Below, in pieces: positions 12,485 through 46,463 of a stretch of 64,000 nt of DNA (position 1 is the stretch's first letter; the number at the start of each line of letters is the position of its first letter). Position numbers and translations under genes: made by a program. Where the stretch lies: assembly GCA_004124875.1 (NCBI GenBank), contig SCKJ01000003.1, positions 220,654-284,653 on the forward strand, in the 5' to 3' direction. The DNA is from Fidelibacterota bacterium. Lineage in GTDB: Bacteria; Fidelibacterota; Marinisomatia; SCGC-AAA003-L08; TS1B11. Under the pieces are notes generated by a model that saw only the letters and a list, made by a program, of their open reading frames with translations, ran no database searches and was not told the origin of the DNA.

Positions 12485-12605
12485 GGGACTCGGGGAGGCA
12501 ATCCCAGTATTCAATCTTCAATCGTCAATTGATAATGCCCGGCAGTGAACGCCTCCCTCCCACCCTTCGAGAACCTCAGGGTGACTGAACTTGCCACTGC
12601 CACTG

Positions 12606-13289
12606 TTACAGCAGCCCCTGTTCCGCGAAGGAGAACAGGTCGTTGCCGCCGACTATCAGGTGGTCGTGGACCTGCACGTCAATGGTCTCGCAAGCCGCCT
12701 TCAGCCGTTTGGTGATGCTGATGTCGTCCTCACTGGGGGAGGGGTTTCCCGAGGGGTGATTGTGCACAAAAATGACGGCGGCGGCATCGTAGGCCAGCAC
12801 CAGCTTGATCACTTCCCGCGAATAGACGGCGCTGGTGGTGAGCGATCCTTCAAAGAGGACTTTCAGATCGATGACCTGATTCCGGCCGTTGAGCAGGATG
12901 ATCAGAAATTGCTCGCGGTTGCGGTTCTTCATGTGGTGCAGCAGATAATCGCGCACCATGCGGGCGGAGGTGGCGTAATCCTTGCCGATGATTTCTTCCC
13001 GCAGATAGCGGTCAGCGACGGCCTGCACCAGCTTGAGGCCGAACAGGTTTTTCTCGCCCACGCCGTTGATGGAGCGCAGCTGGTCATCCGCCGCTTCGAG
13101 GACGCCCCCCAGATTGCCGAAGCGCTTCAGCAGGGCCTTGGCGGTGGGCTTGTGGTCGGGCCGGGGGTCGGCCAGTTTCAGCAGCAGTTCGACCACCTCA
13201 TAATCGAGAAAACCTTCCAGGCCGCTGGTCAGAAAGCGTTCCCGCAAGCGCTGGTAATGTCCCCCTTTGGAATCCGGATTATCGGCCAC
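12606..13289 (-). CDS. radC: RadC-family JAB/MPN domain protein
   Basis: RadC-type protein with a C-terminal JAMM metal site; despite its historical name its biochemical role is unsettled. GTG at 13289 behind GGAG (spacing 5-6) gives 228 residues, the normal RadC length; an upstream ATG at 13397 would add 36 unusual residues overlapping the divergent gene. Residues about 15-100 form the helical UPF0758 N-terminal region with helix-hairpin-helix (SINGVGEKNLFGLKL). The JAMM motif is VHNHPSGNPSPSEDD, with an upstream LNGRNQVIDLK strand. It is divergent from the Pycsar-effector-like gene, 88 bases apart. RadC genes often accompany mobile or defence regions. Confidence 0.9.
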   Translation of the reverse strand: MADNPDSKGGHYQRLRERFLTSGLEGFLDYEVVELLLKLADPRPDHKPTAKALLKRFGNLGGVLEAADDQLRSINGVGEKNLFGLKLVQAVADRYLREEIIGKDYATSARMVRDYLLHHMKNRNREQFLIILLNGRNQVIDLKVLFEGSLTTSAVYSREVIKLVLAYDAAAVIFVHNHPSGNPSPSEDDISITKRLKAACETIDVQVHDHLIVGGNDLFSFAEQGLL

Positions 13290-13377
13290 ATCTACTCCTG
13301 TGTGGATCTGTTGCGAGGAGAAATTGCACAGCTGGTCTAGCTCTTTGCAACCCTCAATGGATATAATAAATTGCGCG

Positions 13378-13914
13378 ATGCCCGAAGACCGTTTCAACCT
13401 TTTATTTCACGTCTGGCAGAGTGAGCAGTCAATTTTGTCTCGCGCCGATCAGAAAGCGTACACCTTGCTATCGGTACTGGGCGTGTTTATGGTGTTTTTC
13501 ATCGCCTATTACCGGCTCATGGAGGTCAATATATTCATCGTCGGCATGTTGACGGTCTACTTTGCCTCGGCGGCGGTCACCATTTATCAACTGATACGGA
13601 CCATCATGCCCCGATTTGACAGCAGCGCGACCATGAAGCATCCCGATGATCCTCCTGATCCCACCTATTTCGGAGGGATTCGGCTTTACGAGTCGGCGGA
13701 CCACTATTTCAATTTCATCCGCTCCCTGGACAGCGGAGACGACCGGTCAATCAAGTTTCTCAGTGCTCAGGTGTATGCCCTGGCTCAAATCAACTGGACA
13801 AAAAACCTCCATTTGCGGCGGGGCATGATGTTTTTCTTCGCCGCCATTTCTGCCGAGCTGCTCATGGTCCTGTCTACTTTTATCAAAATGGGACTCAAAC
13901 AGATCCAGGGCTAG
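13378..13914 (+). CDS. Pycsar effector-like (DUF5706) transmembrane protein
   Basis: 178-residue inner-membrane protein resembling PycTM, the membrane effector that responds to cyclic pyrimidine nucleotides in Pycsar antiphage systems. Seen: an N-terminal helix with SRADQKAYTLLSVLGVF (the conserved ADxKA segment before TM1), TM1 about residues 30-45, TM2 51-71, the family block YFGGIRLYESADHYFNFI, the QVYALAQINWTKNLHLRRG segment, and TM3 about 149-170. Start chosen as the ATG at 13378, directly before the conserved helix; an in-frame ATG at 13267 adds unrelated residues. No pyrimidine cyclase gene is adjacent. QueD follows by 6 bases, suggesting an operon. Family assignment is by motif memory, without a search. 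Confidence 0.65.
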   Translation: MPEDRFNLLFHVWQSEQSILSRADQKAYTLLSVLGVFMVFFIAYYRLMEVNIFIVGMLTVYFASAAVTIYQLIRTIMPRFDSSATMKHPDDPPDPTYFGGIRLYESADHYFNFIRSLDSGDDRSIKFLSAQVYALAQINWTKNLHLRRGMMFFFAAISAELLMVLSTFIKMGLKQIQG

Positions 13915-13920
13915 CTGCTG

Positions 13921-14367
13921 ATGACCCGCACCTCTATATCGCACGGTATCCAAATCATTAAACGCTTTCGCTGGAGCATGGCCCACCGGCTGACCCACGG
14001 CTACAAGGGGCGTTGCGCCTCGCTCCACGGCCATGAATATGAAGTGGGCGTCACCGTTTCCGGAACCATGGATGAGATGGGGCTGGTCGTCGATTTCGGC
14101 GATGTGAAACGCGTATGCGGCGGGTGGATCAAGGAACATTTTGACCATACAACGGCTGTCTATGAGGGCGACAAAGCACTGCTCGATTTCCTGGTTACCG
14201 AGGAGCAGCGGCATTACGTCCTGCCGTTCAACACCACCGCCGAAAACATTGCCATCTACCTGCGGGAGCGATTGCAAGAGGCGCTGGACCAGGCGCTCGA
14301 TAAAGAGCTGAGCATTATCCGTGTGACGCTGATGGAAACCCCCAACAGCTGCGTGGAGACGACCTGA
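13921..14367 (+). CDS. queD: 6-pyruvoyl/6-carboxy-tetrahydropterin synthase family protein
   Basis: Converts dihydroneopterin triphosphate to a tetrahydropterin, in most bacteria 6-carboxytetrahydropterin for queuosine and 7-deazaguanine synthesis. The 148-residue protein has the zinc histidines His22 (SMAHRL), His36 and His38 (CASLHGHEYEV), catalytic Cys32, the DH pair in HFDHTTAV, NTTAENIA for substrate binding and the ETPNSCVE glutamate. It lies between a Pycsar-effector-like gene and a redox protein rather than with queC, queE or queF, which is unusual. A few bases separate it from the upstream gene. QueD versus PTPS function cannot be separated with confidence. Confidence 0.85.
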   Translation: MTRTSISHGIQIIKRFRWSMAHRLTHGYKGRCASLHGHEYEVGVTVSGTMDEMGLVVDFGDVKRVCGGWIKEHFDHTTAVYEGDKALLDFLVTEEQRHYVLPFNTTAENIAIYLRERLQEALDQALDKELSIIRVTLMETPNSCVETT

Positions 14368-14397: not shown

Positions 14398-15273
14398 TTG
14401 TTTCGACTAAAAACGTTTCTGCTGGCCCTCTCCATGATGCAAGGGAGCGCTTTGCGGCACACCCTCTTTCTCGTGGTGGCCACCGGCGCCTGGGTCGCTG
14501 GTCTGGTTTTGGCGGGACTGCCGGTGACGCTGCCGTGGACGCTCGCCGCCGCCGCCGGTCCGGTCCTGACGCTGGGTGGTTACATCGCCGGCATGCTGTG
14601 GCCGTATTGGAGAATCAACTGGATCGTGCGTGCCGGCGTCATCGAAACGGCAGTGGCCGCCATCTGGATCTGGATGGAAGCGCCACCCATCGCCGCGCTG
14701 TTGCTCACCTGGATGCCCCTCGCTGTGGGGACGAACATGCTGCAGTACCACGAGCGCAAGAGCATCTATCGCGCGCCGGGCAAAGGATCCCCTGTAGTCG
14801 GTGATCCCTTCCCCGATTTTGACCTGATTGACCATGCAGGCCGCCAGGTGAACCGGTCCGCAACCTTGGCCGATGGCGCGGTCCTGTTTCTGTTTTACCG
14901 CGGGGACTGGTGACCATTTTGCGTCACTGAGCTGGGGCAGCTGCAGAAGTACTATCAATCGTTTCAGGATCGAGGCGTCCGCATCTTCGCCATATCTGTC
15001 GATTCCCCGGAGCAGAATGCCAAGCTGCGCCGCCGTCTCGGGTCAGGTTTCACCTTTCTCAGCGACTCCGGGCTGGCGCTCATCAACCGCATGGCCATTC
15101 CTTACAAGCGTAGCGCGCGAGGGGAAGGCCCCCTGGCCATTCCGTCCCAGTTTCTGGTGGACCGCTCAGGCGTGATCCGGTGGAAGTATATCAGCGATAC
15201 CTGGCGTCGCCGGCTGCCGGGGAAGAACGTACTGGCGGCAATCACGGACGCCATGCCGGTGGTTGGGAACTAA
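14398..15273 (+). CDS. Membrane-anchored peroxiredoxin-like protein with in-frame UGA (probable selenoprotein)
   Basis: Read through one in-frame TGA at 14911-14913, the frame gives 291 residues ending TAA at 15271-15273. Residues 1-115 hold about four membrane segments. From about 130 an AhpC/TSA-Prx-like domain starts (VVGDPFPDFDLIDHAGRQV). The TGA is codon 172 in FYRGDW-U-PFCVTEL, exactly where homologues have the first Cys of WCPFC; Cys175 is retained. After it come IFAISVDSPEQ, FTFLSDSG and PSQFLVDRSGVIRW, all Prx-fold elements, without any frameshift. A hairpin lies 13 bases after the TGA. The TTG start at 14398 is uncertain; ATG codons at 14434/14437 are alternatives. If not selenocysteine, it is a nonsense mutation or assembly error. 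Confidence 0.75.
14927..14946 (+). promoter_or_regulatory. SECIS-like hairpin just after the UGA
   Basis: CTGAGCTG pairs with CAGCTGCAG around a GGG loop, giving eight base pairs with one bulged G on the 3' side. It begins 13 bases after the TGA at 14911-14913. Bacterial SECIS elements sit within the coding sequence at about this distance and have a short stem with a G-containing small apical loop and a bulged base that SelB recognises. The structure also encodes conserved protein residues, so the fit is suggestive only. Confidence 0.5.
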
Positions 15274-16844
15274 ATCAGGCGCTGGTACTCGCTTAAATCC
15301 AGCTGCCACACTTTTACGCCGCAATACCGGTCGCCCTCGGGGCAGATCGGCTTGGCGCCCGCCATATGACGCGGGGTGCAGGGCGGCAACAGAAACCGTC
15401 CCAGGCGCGGATGGACTTCGCGCACCTGCTGGGCCTCATCGACGCTCGCCCGCCAAATTTCCTCCTGGGCATTGTAGCAGAGCCGCATATGATGTTTGTG
15501 CAGCAGATTCAGCAGGTCGGCCGACTCCGTGAACCGCACGGCCACCGCGTTGGGCAGCAGGTAGTTGGCCTCTTCATCACTGACTCCCATGCGCTTCAGG
15601 CGGCCAATCCCATCCCATGTTCGAGTCATGGTCTCGTCGTAAAGCCGACGCGAGGCCTCGTCTGTCTGAACCAGCGTAGGGGTGATGTAATCGGGATCGC
15701 CGGAAAGCTGCATGGCGAGGGCGGGTCTGCTTCCGGGAGTCATGCGGTGGCGCTGATCCTGGCTGTCGGCCGCGTGGGACAATTTTTTCCTGAACGTGTA
15801 GCCGGGATGGTTGGCCGTCCGGGCCAGTTTATCGTGCGTGGTCAAGTTCAGCGTTTCCCCATAGAGAGCGTTGCGGGTGGGATCAAGCGCCAGCTCGATG
15901 GCTTCATCATCACTCAGCTCGGTGCGCGGCCGCCCCAGCACTTCGCGGACGGAATCGGCCACGACCTGCTCGGCATTGACTTTGTAATCGATGAGGCGGG
16001 ACGTGCGCCCCTCCAGGGAGGCATCGAACTCTGCGGCAAACTGAGGCGCAGGCGCCGCCTCTTCGAGCCACGGAAACAGGGCAAAATCGGAGCGGTTAAG
16101 CGGCTCCTGAAGCACAATTTTGTATTGCGGATCATGCGCCAGCACAGCGTTGACCATGAGCTCCACCACGCGCCGCTGCTCGAGTGGCACGTCCCCCTGC
16201 TGGCAGATGCGCCAGTAACGCAGCAGGGTCACGCCGCTCACGGTATGGTAGAGGTGAGCGAGCGTTGCGATAGGCGCCACGTAGCGGGCCGCTTCCTGGG
16301 TTATTTTCAGGATCGATTTGCGGTGTTCATCCTTCCGGCGGCCGCGAGCGGGGAAGAGGCGAAAATATTCCGCCTCGGCGGTGGGGAACAGGGATTCTCG
16401 CAGAGACCGGTAAGCTGCCAGCTGCATTTCGACTGTTGCAAGATAGACTTCCCGCGCCGCACTGGAGATTTGTGGCATATAGATGGCGTCGGCCTTGAGG
16501 CGCACATAGCGCTGGCTCACCTGCTCGGAATTGTAAAAGGGGTGGCTGTGCAAAAACGACCAGATGAACTGCCGTGAGACGCCGCTGAGGGCAAATTGAA
16601 ACTGGGCATGCTGAAAAGTGGTGTGGTGCCCAGCCTGGTAGATCGACTCTGCGATGGCCCGGTCGCGCCCCTCCGCGGTGAGATCAATGGCGCTGTCAAG
16701 GATAATCCCTTTGCCGCTGTAACAGGTGCGGGCAGTGGCGATGGCATTACTGAAGGGTGTCGAAAACGCCTTGACGAGCTCCACAACCGGCTGGGTGCTG
16801 CCTGCCGATGCAACACTTTTTGACGTTTTTACCGCTTCGGCCAT
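15270..16844 (-). CDS. thyX: Double-domain flavin-dependent thymidylate synthase (ThyX-like)
   Basis: FAD-dependent methylation of dUMP to dTMP is expected of the family. At 524 residues it is about twice canonical ThyX length and contains two ThyX-like halves. The N-half has ATARTCYSG, the helix AGHHTTFQHAQFQFALSGVS and SQRYVR at 110-115, but SHP where RHR should be. The C-half starts near 325 (ARTANHPGYTF), has QRHRMTPGSRP with RHR at 365-367, and ends with HMRLCYNAQEEIWR. The two halves thus hold complementary parts of the signature RHRx7SxR. It overlaps the 3' end of the UGA-containing gene by 4 bases, convergently. No thyA is seen in the window. Confidence 0.85.
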   Translation of the reverse strand: MAEAVKTSKSVASAGSTQPVVELVKAFSTPFSNAIATARTCYSGKGIILDSAIDLTAEGRDRAIAESIYQAGHHTTFQHAQFQFALSGVSRQFIWSFLHSHPFYNSEQVSQRYVRLKADAIYMPQISSAAREVYLATVEMQLAAYRSLRESLFPTAEAEYFRLFPARGRRKDEHRKSILKITQEAARYVAPIATLAHLYHTVSGVTLLRYWRICQQGDVPLEQRRVVELMVNAVLAHDPQYKIVLQEPLNRSDFALFPWLEEAAPAPQFAAEFDASLEGRTSRLIDYKVNAEQVVADSVREVLGRPRTELSDDEAIELALDPTRNALYGETLNLTTHDKLARTANHPGYTFRKKLSHAADSQDQRHRMTPGSRPALAMQLSGDPDYITPTLVQTDEASRRLYDETMTRTWDGIGRLKRMGVSDEEANYLLPNAVAVRFTESADLLNLLHKHHMRLCYNAQEEIWRASVDEAQQVREVHPRLGRFLLPPCTPRHMAGAKPICPEGDRYCGVKVWQLDLSEYQRLI

Positions 16845-19912: not shown

Positions 19913-21736
19913 CTATTTCGGACTGTCCATTTGGTCGAGCAGCTCCTGAAATCGAGGATGGCCATGCAGAGAGGTCAGATCGCCATCGTTTTCCACCCAT
20001 CCTCTGTTACTAAAACCCGCCAGCAAGACCTTCGAAAGGTAATCGAGCGCTTTTTCGGTGTCTCCTGCCCGGGCGTAGCAACAGGCAACGTTGTATACCG
20101 TTGTTAAATTGTCAGGGTCGATGGCGAGGGCACGCTCGGCAAATTCGAGGCCTCTCTCCCGCTCACCCTGGCCGATCAGCAATGCTGCGCCAAGGTCAAG
20201 TGCACGGATGTCATCCGGGTTTAGCTCCAGGCGTCTCTCGATGATTTTTATTGCCCGCCGCCGGGCCGATTCCATTTGCACAGTGTCGCCCAGCTTATCA
20301 TATACGGCGACGACTAGGCTCAGTGCCTGGAAATCCTGTGGGTTGACCTCTGCGGCCTTTTCAAACAGTTGTGCCGTTCGCTCCATTTTTCCCTGGGCCC
20401 AGCATGTGCGGGCATACAAATAGTATGCCTCGTATAGTTTATCATTCATGCCAATGGCTGTATCAAATTCGCTTTCAGCCAGATCGTATTGCCCATGAAG
20501 GGATGCGGCCCAACCATGAGAGACATGCGCTTCAGCCAGGTTAGGACCCAGTTCCAGGGCTTTCCCGCTGGCCTCGATGGCGGCCTCGACCTTGCTCTCA
20601 GCCGCGCCGAAATAAAGGTAGGACCAGGAATGGCAGTCGGCCAAACCCGCATAGGCCCGGGCAAACTCCGGGTCGATTTCTATGGCGCGCGTGAACATTC
20701 CTATCGCGAATTGCAGGCTCTCCAGGTTCGCCCGGTGGAAAAACTCACGTCCCCTGAGGTAGTAATCGTAGGCTTCGATGTTGTCGGTGGATTGCGTTAC
20801 CAGCTGCTGCTCGCCTCCCAGATTGATTTTCAATGCACTAACGACAGTCAGGGCAATCTCGTCCTGGATGGCGAACACATCCTCAAGTTCCCGGTCATAT
20901 TTCTCAGACCAAAGGTGGAAGCCGTCACTCACATTTATGAGCTGAACTGTTATGCGCAGCTGGTTGCCCGATTTGCGAATGCTGCCTTCCAGCACTTTGT
21001 CGACGCCCAGTTGGTTCCCGATCAAACGGATGTCTTGCTGCTTATTCTTGAAAGCGAATGCCGAGGTCCGGGCTACAACTTTCAGGTGATCGACTCGGGC
21101 CAAGGCGTCAATCAGCTCCTCAGTCATGCCATCGCAGAAATATTCCTGGTCTTTATCAGGGCTCATATCCACAAAGGGCAACACGGCTATAGCTGGGACC
21201 GTCCTATCGGCGCCGGAATCATCCTGGGCCTGAGATGCTGTGGTGAGGACGGTATAGACATCCACCGGTTCGGCAATCCCCTTGAGGTCTTTCCGGCCCA
21301 GGTGACCCGTACGGAGGCCCGATTGATTCCGGATATCCGCGTAGACCCGCTCCGAGACACAGATGCCCCCTGGCTCGGCCAGCGGTTCGATGCGCGAGGC
21401 CACATTCACGCCGTCGCCGAAGACATCCCCACCCCTGAACACCACATCGCCGATATGGATGCCGATACGTAGGGTCAGATCCTGATCATCTGCCAGGGAA
21501 CGCTGAATTTCCACGGCACACTGAACCGCTTCCACGGCGCTGGCGAAGGCAGATAGAGATCCGTCACCGATTTCCTTTAGCCACTCACCGTTGGCGCCCT
21601 CAATGATGGGCTTAAGAATCTCCCTGTTCCGGTCCAGGAGCTCCAGCGCCAGGCCTTCATCCCGGGACATCAGGGCTGTGTACCCAACAATGTCAGTGAA
21701 CATGATGGCGGCGAGGCGGCGTTTAGAGTCGCTCAT
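19913..21736 (-). CDS. Class III adenylate/guanylate cyclase with TolB-like and TPR domains
   Basis: Probable cytoplasmic cAMP-forming signalling protein of 607 residues with no membrane segment. Residues about 5-165 are the catalytic domain: MFTDIVGYTAL (first metal Asp), GEWLKEIGDGS (base-recognising Lys and second metal Asp), LRIGIHIGDVV, and FGDGVNVASRIEPLAEPGGI (transition-state Asn/Arg). A TolB-N-like region follows (TVPAIAVLPFVDMSPDKDQEYFCDGM), then at least six TPRs. Its start overlaps the stop of a short family remnant (ATGA at 21736-21733), so translation may be coupled. It is a paralogue of the gene at 27879-29921 but lacks that protein's membrane segment. Confidence 0.88.
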   Translation of the reverse strand: MSDSKRRLAAIMFTDIVGYTALMSRDEGLALELLDRNREILKPIIEGANGEWLKEIGDGSLSAFASAVEAVQCAVEIQRSLADDQDLTLRIGIHIGDVVFRGGDVFGDGVNVASRIEPLAEPGGICVSERVYADIRNQSGLRTGHLGRKDLKGIAEPVDVYTVLTTASQAQDDSGADRTVPAIAVLPFVDMSPDKDQEYFCDGMTEELIDALARVDHLKVVARTSAFAFKNKQQDIRLIGNQLGVDKVLEGSIRKSGNQLRITVQLINVSDGFHLWSEKYDRELEDVFAIQDEIALTVVSALKINLGGEQQLVTQSTDNIEAYDYYLRGREFFHRANLESLQFAIGMFTRAIEIDPEFARAYAGLADCHSWSYLYFGAAESKVEAAIEASGKALELGPNLAEAHVSHGWAASLHGQYDLAESEFDTAIGMNDKLYEAYYLYARTCWAQGKMERTAQLFEKAAEVNPQDFQALSLVVAVYDKLGDTVQMESARRRAIKIIERRLELNPDDIRALDLGAALLIGQGERERGLEFAERALAIDPDNLTTVYNVACCYARAGDTEKALDYLSKVLLAGFSNRGWVENDGDLTSLHGHPRFQELLDQMDSPK

Positions 21737-46293: not shown

Positions 46294-46463
46294 GTAAATC
46301 CTTTTCGTTATAGACACAGGTGCTGCGCGACCTGTTAAAAATTTGCTACCTGAATAATAGACGACTCAACTGCCGCTGGTGTTGCAGCGGCCGGTAAAAA
46401 ATGCTATTTGATGGAGAAGTCCGGGGAAGGTGTGGCTGCCGGCCGCGCCAGCAGGTGGGAGCG

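Follow-up and report, generated by a model that had tools for sequence, protein, structure and literature searches.

The question raised by this locus is whether a TGA triplet that interrupts an otherwise open frame is read as selenocysteine and, if it is, what kind of protein results and whether its neighbours are its partners. A reading of the sequence alone had proposed a probable selenoprotein, with a peroxiredoxin-like UxxC domain fused to about four membrane segments, in an operon with QueD and a Pycsar-like gene. The stretch of DNA analysed, called here the window (64,000 nucleotides, G000:C12:220654-284653), belongs to a genome of 3.02 Mb that is 94% complete. Coordinates of the features are collected in Table 1.

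Table 1. Position of the features discussed, and the evidence on which each was called.
Feature	Position in the window	Strand	Basis
PycTM-domain membrane protein, 178 aa, upstream neighbour	13378..13914	+	Pfam/PADLOC domain match
QueD/PTPS family protein, upstream neighbour, ends 30 bp before the selenocysteine (Sec) gene	13921..14367	+	conserved neighbour
Predicted Prx-like membrane protein with Sec, 291 aa when the UGA is translated	14398..15273	+	frame, Pfam, orthologue
N-terminal membrane domain (predicted), residues 1-125, no Cys, no Pfam match	14398..14772	+	two genomes only
Prx-like / thioredoxin-fold domain, residues 126-291, with U172, C175 and P249	14773..15270	+	PF00578, PDB sequence and fold matches, alignment
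UGA codon for predicted Sec172, first residue of UxxC (W-U-P-F-C)	14911..14913	+	same codon TGA, TGC or TGT in homologues
Putative bacterial SECIS hairpin CUGAGCUG-GGG-CAGCUGCAG, apical loop 14935-14937	14927..14946	+	folding, conservation, published model
ThyX-domain protein, convergent; stop overlapping that of the Sec gene	15270..16844	-	domain match

The in-frame TGA, its homologues and the sel genes

Translation confirmed that this TGA is the sole in-frame stop between a TTG start at 14398 (with ATG 14434 as an alternative) and the terminal TAA at 15271-15273. As the sequence-only reading had it, the codon falls at the first Cys of a WCPFC redox motif and the second Cys is retained: the active site translates as FLFYRGDW-U-PFCVTELGQLQ, in which U is residue 172 and the second Cys residue 175. 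Prx-fold sequence on both sides of the TGA was borne out by a match to Pfam AhpC-TSA (PF00578) that spans residues 134-262, with 91.4 bits against a cut-off of 26. When the window was scanned for read-through candidates (a TGA between two open stretches of at least 60 codons, in a plausible coding place), the TGA at 14911 alone had a compact SECIS-like hairpin. A second candidate, the TGA at 46368, was rejected, its hairpin lying 36 nt away and coding across the TGA being unsupported.

All the sel genes looked for were present in the source genome with scores over the curated cut-offs: a tRNA-Sec with anticodon UCA (61.8 bits), selB (316 bits) and selA (496 bits), which adjoin each other on contig 1, and selD (369 bits). 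The selD gene (L018, G000:C12:165488-166420) itself appears to be a selenoprotein gene, with one in-frame TGA of its own and, after it, a hairpin recognised by eye (AAGCTCG-GTCCCAA-CGAGCTT). A tRNA-Sec scored over the cut-off in 18 of the 21 genomes tested. It was not found in the assemblies of G001, G223 and G225, all three of which have selA, and the simplest reading is a gap in incomplete assemblies; in G001 (about 92% complete) only other tRNAs were found. Since carriers of Cys forms have tRNA-Sec too, its presence does not separate Sec from Cys carriers. Second tRNA-Sec-like matches, just over the cut-off and beside the main tRNA-Sec, were seen at G002:C1:767661-767747 (49.8 bits) and G007:C252:5165-5250 (51.2 bits), and may be tRNA-Ser. 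Within the window Rfam matched tRNA-Asn alone. A 92-nt tRNA-Glu called by ARAGORN at 12571-12662 overlaps the radC frame, has no Rfam match and is probably false.

An orthologue of 287 aa, 61% identical and with TGA at the same codon, was found in G001, a genome of the same genus (SCKI01000004.1, Candidatus Neomarinimicrobiota bacterium TS1B11; this is the phylum named Fidelibacterota in the taxonomy used). Its gene (L026:4998-5861) begins with ATG at the place equivalent to the start of the window gene. Identity reaches 65.8% after the TGA, higher than in the parts before it, and the alignment has no gaps between the TGA and a point close to the C-terminus, and no frameshift after the TGA. 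Substitution rates over this part (dN 0.30, dS 0.90, dN/dS about 0.33) indicate that selection after the TGA is purifying; neither this identity nor this ratio is what a pseudogene or a miscalled base predicts. The TS1B11 orthologue was also the only one returned by a scan of the genomes of 84,980 species with close-relative patterns, a method that reaches close relatives only.

A profile of the two proteins, run against 245 genomes of the phylum, returned 17 further Prx-like domains. At the codon homologous to 172, TGA was found in 11 of them (L030-L033, L036-L041 and L044, from ten genomes, all with tRNA-Sec or selA) and TGC or TGT in the six others. For one of the latter, L035, the TAG listed by the profile search lies outside the active site, which has TGT. 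The Cys forms include L042, a paralogue in the window's own genome that uses TGC, and L043 in G001. These proteins (L030-L044) share with the window protein the homologous domain, the W-(U/C)-P-x-C motif and, in the Sec forms, a SECIS at the same place; they differ from it in that all 17 are single-domain, most with an export signal (signal-peptide or lipoprotein-like N-termini), and are 25-30% identical to it. Sec and Cys forms are mixed in the tree (L036, a Sec form, stands beside the Cys forms L042 and L043), and the two membrane-fused proteins make up a branch of their own, whose position is uncertain because of long branches. Exported selenoproteins of the Prx-like type, with the motif WUPYC or WUPPC, appear as a group (loci L030-L041 and L044) in one Fidelibacterota family and in relatives of the window's family.

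The hairpin downstream of the TGA

The hairpin noted by the sequence-only reading does begin where that reading put it: in CUG.AGCUG-GGG-CAGCU.GCAG, the stem starts after 13 intervening bases. The apical loop starts 22 nt after the UGA, in the window gene as in the TGA genes at large. The window has 2285 TGA triplets, both strands counted, of which that at 14911 is the only one with a perfect 5-bp stem and a 3-nt G-loop at exactly this distance. The published description of bSECIS elements (PMC13188914) gives a loop of 3-9 nt that has G in its first two positions, a stem of 4-16 bp, a spacing of 16-37 nt and an MFE of -7.5 or lower. In the window hairpin the loop is GGG (3 nt, G first), the stem has five perfect pairs and three more after a bulge, the spacing is 21 nt, and the MFE is -8.2 to -8.6 kcal/mol with flanking bases; the bare 20-nt element gives -7.1, just short of the limit, so that all the published constraints hold when flanking bases are included. 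Compared with shuffles, the folding energy of the TGA region is not unusual, and support for the hairpin therefore comes from position and conservation and not from stability.

The consensus of the hairpin in TGA genes is (A/G)CAG(U/C)UG - GGN - CA(A/G)CUG(U/C), of which the window gene and its orthologue have a small variant, the lower three pairs being shifted by a one-base bulge. Pairing was found in 92.2% of the cells in 11 distinct TGA sequences, against 54.8% in the six Cys sequences; judged from this alignment, the Cys genes have an eroded hairpin. At column pair 22/30, six of the distinct TGA sequences have U-A and the other five C-G, both changes being synonymous (Leu TTG/CTG, Gln CAA/CAG). 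Much of this covariation follows two lineages of different base composition, but both sides of the pair have also changed in L041, which sits within the AT-rich lineage, and in L044, which sits within the family of the window. The pair adjoining the loop is broken in L044, alone among the 13 TGA genes. The residues encoded at the hairpin are LGQL in all TGA genes, as against LQQL, LSQL, LAEL, LSEL, LASL or LRHL in Cys genes, as expected from a constraint on the RNA.

A Prx-like UxxC domain behind a membrane domain

In alignments with PDB sequences, and with the catalytic residues of Prx as generally assigned, Sec172 lines up with the Prx Thr and with the first of the two Cys in ResA, Cys175 with the peroxidatic Cys, and Pro249 with the catalytic Arg of Prx and, in ResA, with a Pro. 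This Pro is invariant in 19 aligned sequences. The structure model of the Prx-like domain has a pLDDT mostly above 90, and Foldseek matched it to Bcp4, AhpE and PrxQ with target TM-scores mostly of 0.8-0.88 (a first prediction, made from two sequences, had a mean pLDDT of 59.9 and was left out of the fold search). The signature of peroxiredoxins proper, PxxxTxxC(U) with a catalytic Arg, is absent, as the Thr position is Sec172 and the Arg position Pro249; in place of TxxU or TxxC the protein has UxxC, U172-P-F-C175. It scored below the cut-offs for the SelL-related redox proteins (NF040769, 37.4 bits against an NCBIfam cut-off of 120) and for AhpC-TSA_2 (PF13911, 14.7 bits against 27).

On these comparisons the catalytic domain is better called a UxxC Prx-like thiol:disulfide oxidoreductase than a true peroxiredoxin. 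Of the earlier label "peroxiredoxin-like", the fold and the UxxC motif stand, and the peroxiredoxin name does not, given the replacement of the Prx Thr and Arg by Sec and Pro. With the ResA/TlpA thiol-disulfide oxidoreductases, which are periplasmic, have one anchor helix and carry Cys in place of Sec, the window protein shares the CxxC geometry and the cis-Pro position. That UxxC peroxiredoxin-like selenoproteins are known in bacteria, as had been claimed, is correct: a family with distant Prx homology and a thioredoxin-like UXXC active site was described in the Sargasso Sea survey (PMC1088965), and Prx-like thiol:disulfide oxidoreductase selenoproteins are listed in a 2026 review (PMC13188914). 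The active site of the window protein matches this family, and its catalytic class is therefore ordinary. Shared with these proteins (the "Prx-like 1" of ocean surveys, with UxxC or UxxU) are the Sec-first UxxC, PF00578, the downstream bSECIS and the existence of Cys homologues (PMC1088965, PMC2398784, PMC13188914); the difference is that the domain sits here behind a Cys-free membrane domain of about four predicted helices. A likeness to cd02970, by annotation and not by the cd02970 model, comes from plasmid-borne relatives with YRGAWCPYC annotated "peroxiredoxin-like family protein"; these are Cys proteins of about 217 aa without the membrane domain, and the Sec subfamily listed for cd02970 is UxxS (PMC13188914). 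Iodothyronine deiodinases, as presented in PMC9141512, are likewise membrane-anchored thioredoxin-fold selenoproteins, but have a different active site and belong to a different family (PF00837), for which the window protein has no Pfam match.

About four membrane helices are predicted in the N-terminal domain, at roughly residues 18-38, 44-70, 74-94 and 97-120. Three strong hydropathy peaks were called in the window protein, and the pLDDT of this part of the model is about 50-75; because of this low confidence, helix number and sidedness have to be read as predictions. Positive charges (R3 K5 R20 / R72 R78 / R120 K121 R125 K129) lie to one and the same side of the helices: both orthologues have them at the N-terminus, in the loop that joins helices 2 and 3 and past the end of helix 4, and not in the other loops, so that by the positive-inside rule both ends would be cytoplasmic. 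No redox Cys pair of the VKOR or DsbD/CcdA type was found in this domain, residues 1-171 having no Cys at all, and a Pfam search with E up to 5 returned nothing. Searches with the membrane domain found it in two genomes of one genus only among the 245 genomes of the phylum, and gave no convincing match elsewhere among 392 relatives. Three matches with E of 0.003-0.006 cover 43-67 positions and were taken as chance, and plasmid records matching into residues 70-130 were discarded as fusion relatives, the proteins being of an ordinary kind, about 217 aa long. Such a membrane domain is not among the fusions listed in PMC2398784. In the literature searched, chiefly the main texts of open papers, we found no description of a membrane-fused Prx-like selenoprotein, nor of selenoproteins as a theme in this phylum. 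The fusion, which the sequence-only reading had called an undescribed architecture, thus appears new and is so far limited to one genus.

Weighing the readings of the locus

Homologues with TGA or Cys at the same codon, an orthologue under purifying selection, a covarying SECIS and the sel genes together lead us to the view that this gene very probably encodes a selenoprotein, an integral membrane protein with a Prx-like UxxC thioredoxin-fold domain. Comparison supports the UGA with its hairpin, the sel genes, conservation and purifying selection past the UGA, and the fold. The UGA would be read as selenocysteine by SelB and tRNA-Sec with the hairpin as guide. Sec172 would then be the nucleophile that attacks a disulfide, a sulfenic acid or a peroxide, Cys175 would resolve it as a selenenylsulfide, and a thioredoxin-like reductant would reduce the latter. 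The membrane domain would be a Cys-free anchor holding the redox domain on the cytoplasmic face, so that the substrates of the enzyme may be peroxides, or membrane proteins that have been oxidised, on the inside of the inner membrane. That this domain is instead a new redox partner module (quinone-linked, for example), making the protein a self-contained membrane-to-thiol electron relay using selenium, is a speculation to which we give little credit.

A nonsense mutation or a miscalled TGC or TGT, leaving a broken or a Cys-containing frame, would be a single base away, and L042 does use TGC in the same genome; the recurrence of the TGA, at dS about 1 and without a later frameshift, in a genome that was assembled independently, its presence in 11 more loci, and the conserved SECIS make a pseudogene or an error scarcely tenable. 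Granting that the UGA is decoded, an odd helix number or an inverted domain would place the redox domain in the periplasm, as a TlpA/ResA-like envelope disulfide reductase. The exported cousins in the phylum, the ResA-like UxxC with cis-Pro and the count of only three strong hydropathy peaks speak for this arrangement, which we consider unlikely, given the charge pattern of both orthologues and the lack of any DsbD/CcdA-type reductant gene seen next to the Sec gene. A true Sec peroxiredoxin, whose peroxidatic residue would be U172 or C175, is a rather improbable reading of this protein: its closest folds are 1-Cys and PrxQ-type peroxiredoxins and C175 aligns with the peroxidatic Cys, but Sec occupies the conserved Thr of TxxC, the Arg position is the invariant Pro249, and known Sec peroxiredoxins are TxxU (PMC1088965, PMC13188914).

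That the Sec gene acts together with QueD and the PycTM-like gene in a shared pathway, such as defence against phages or a redox step on pterins, would fit the common strand, the 30 bp to QueD and the gene order RadC / PycTM-like / QueD / Sec gene / ThyX / inositol monophosphatase, common to the window and G001 (which has extra genes before thyX). The PycTM domain is real (PADLOC PycTM models match with E 2.5e-15). However, no PycC cyclase was found in the cluster, and five further genomes of the family have a QueD-like protein (63-68% identity) with PycTM-like and RadC genes upstream, but lack the Sec gene. In G010, about 100 bp separate QueD from thyX, the next gene; an SDR-like gene lies between the two in G003, and other genes follow QueD in G007, G009 and G002. 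We regard the shared pathway as very unlikely. As the QueD and PycTM-like pair occurs without it, the Sec gene is most simply seen as a later addition beside QueD, and its closeness to QueD may reflect translational coupling or nothing more than chance. The operon partnership put forward by the sequence-only reading is thus doubtful, its "Pycsar-like" label, with a PycTM domain and no cyclase, is weak, and the claim that its partners are QueD and a defence-like gene is best dropped. Nearby, one protein alone (19913-21736) looks like a cyclase, and it was rejected: its match to PycC is weak (27.6 bits), and it belongs to the TPR proteins. The block of divergent RadC, PycTM-domain and QueD-like genes (12606-14367) is conserved in seven genomes of the family.

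Gene callers unaware of selenocysteine would stop this protein at residue 171. Read through, it would give a class of redox selenoproteins that is common in bacteria a membrane-integrated architecture. The family also offers a clear natural experiment within one phylum, the same active site being encoded either by TGA with a covarying SECIS or by TGC or TGT with a decayed hairpin, even within one genome.
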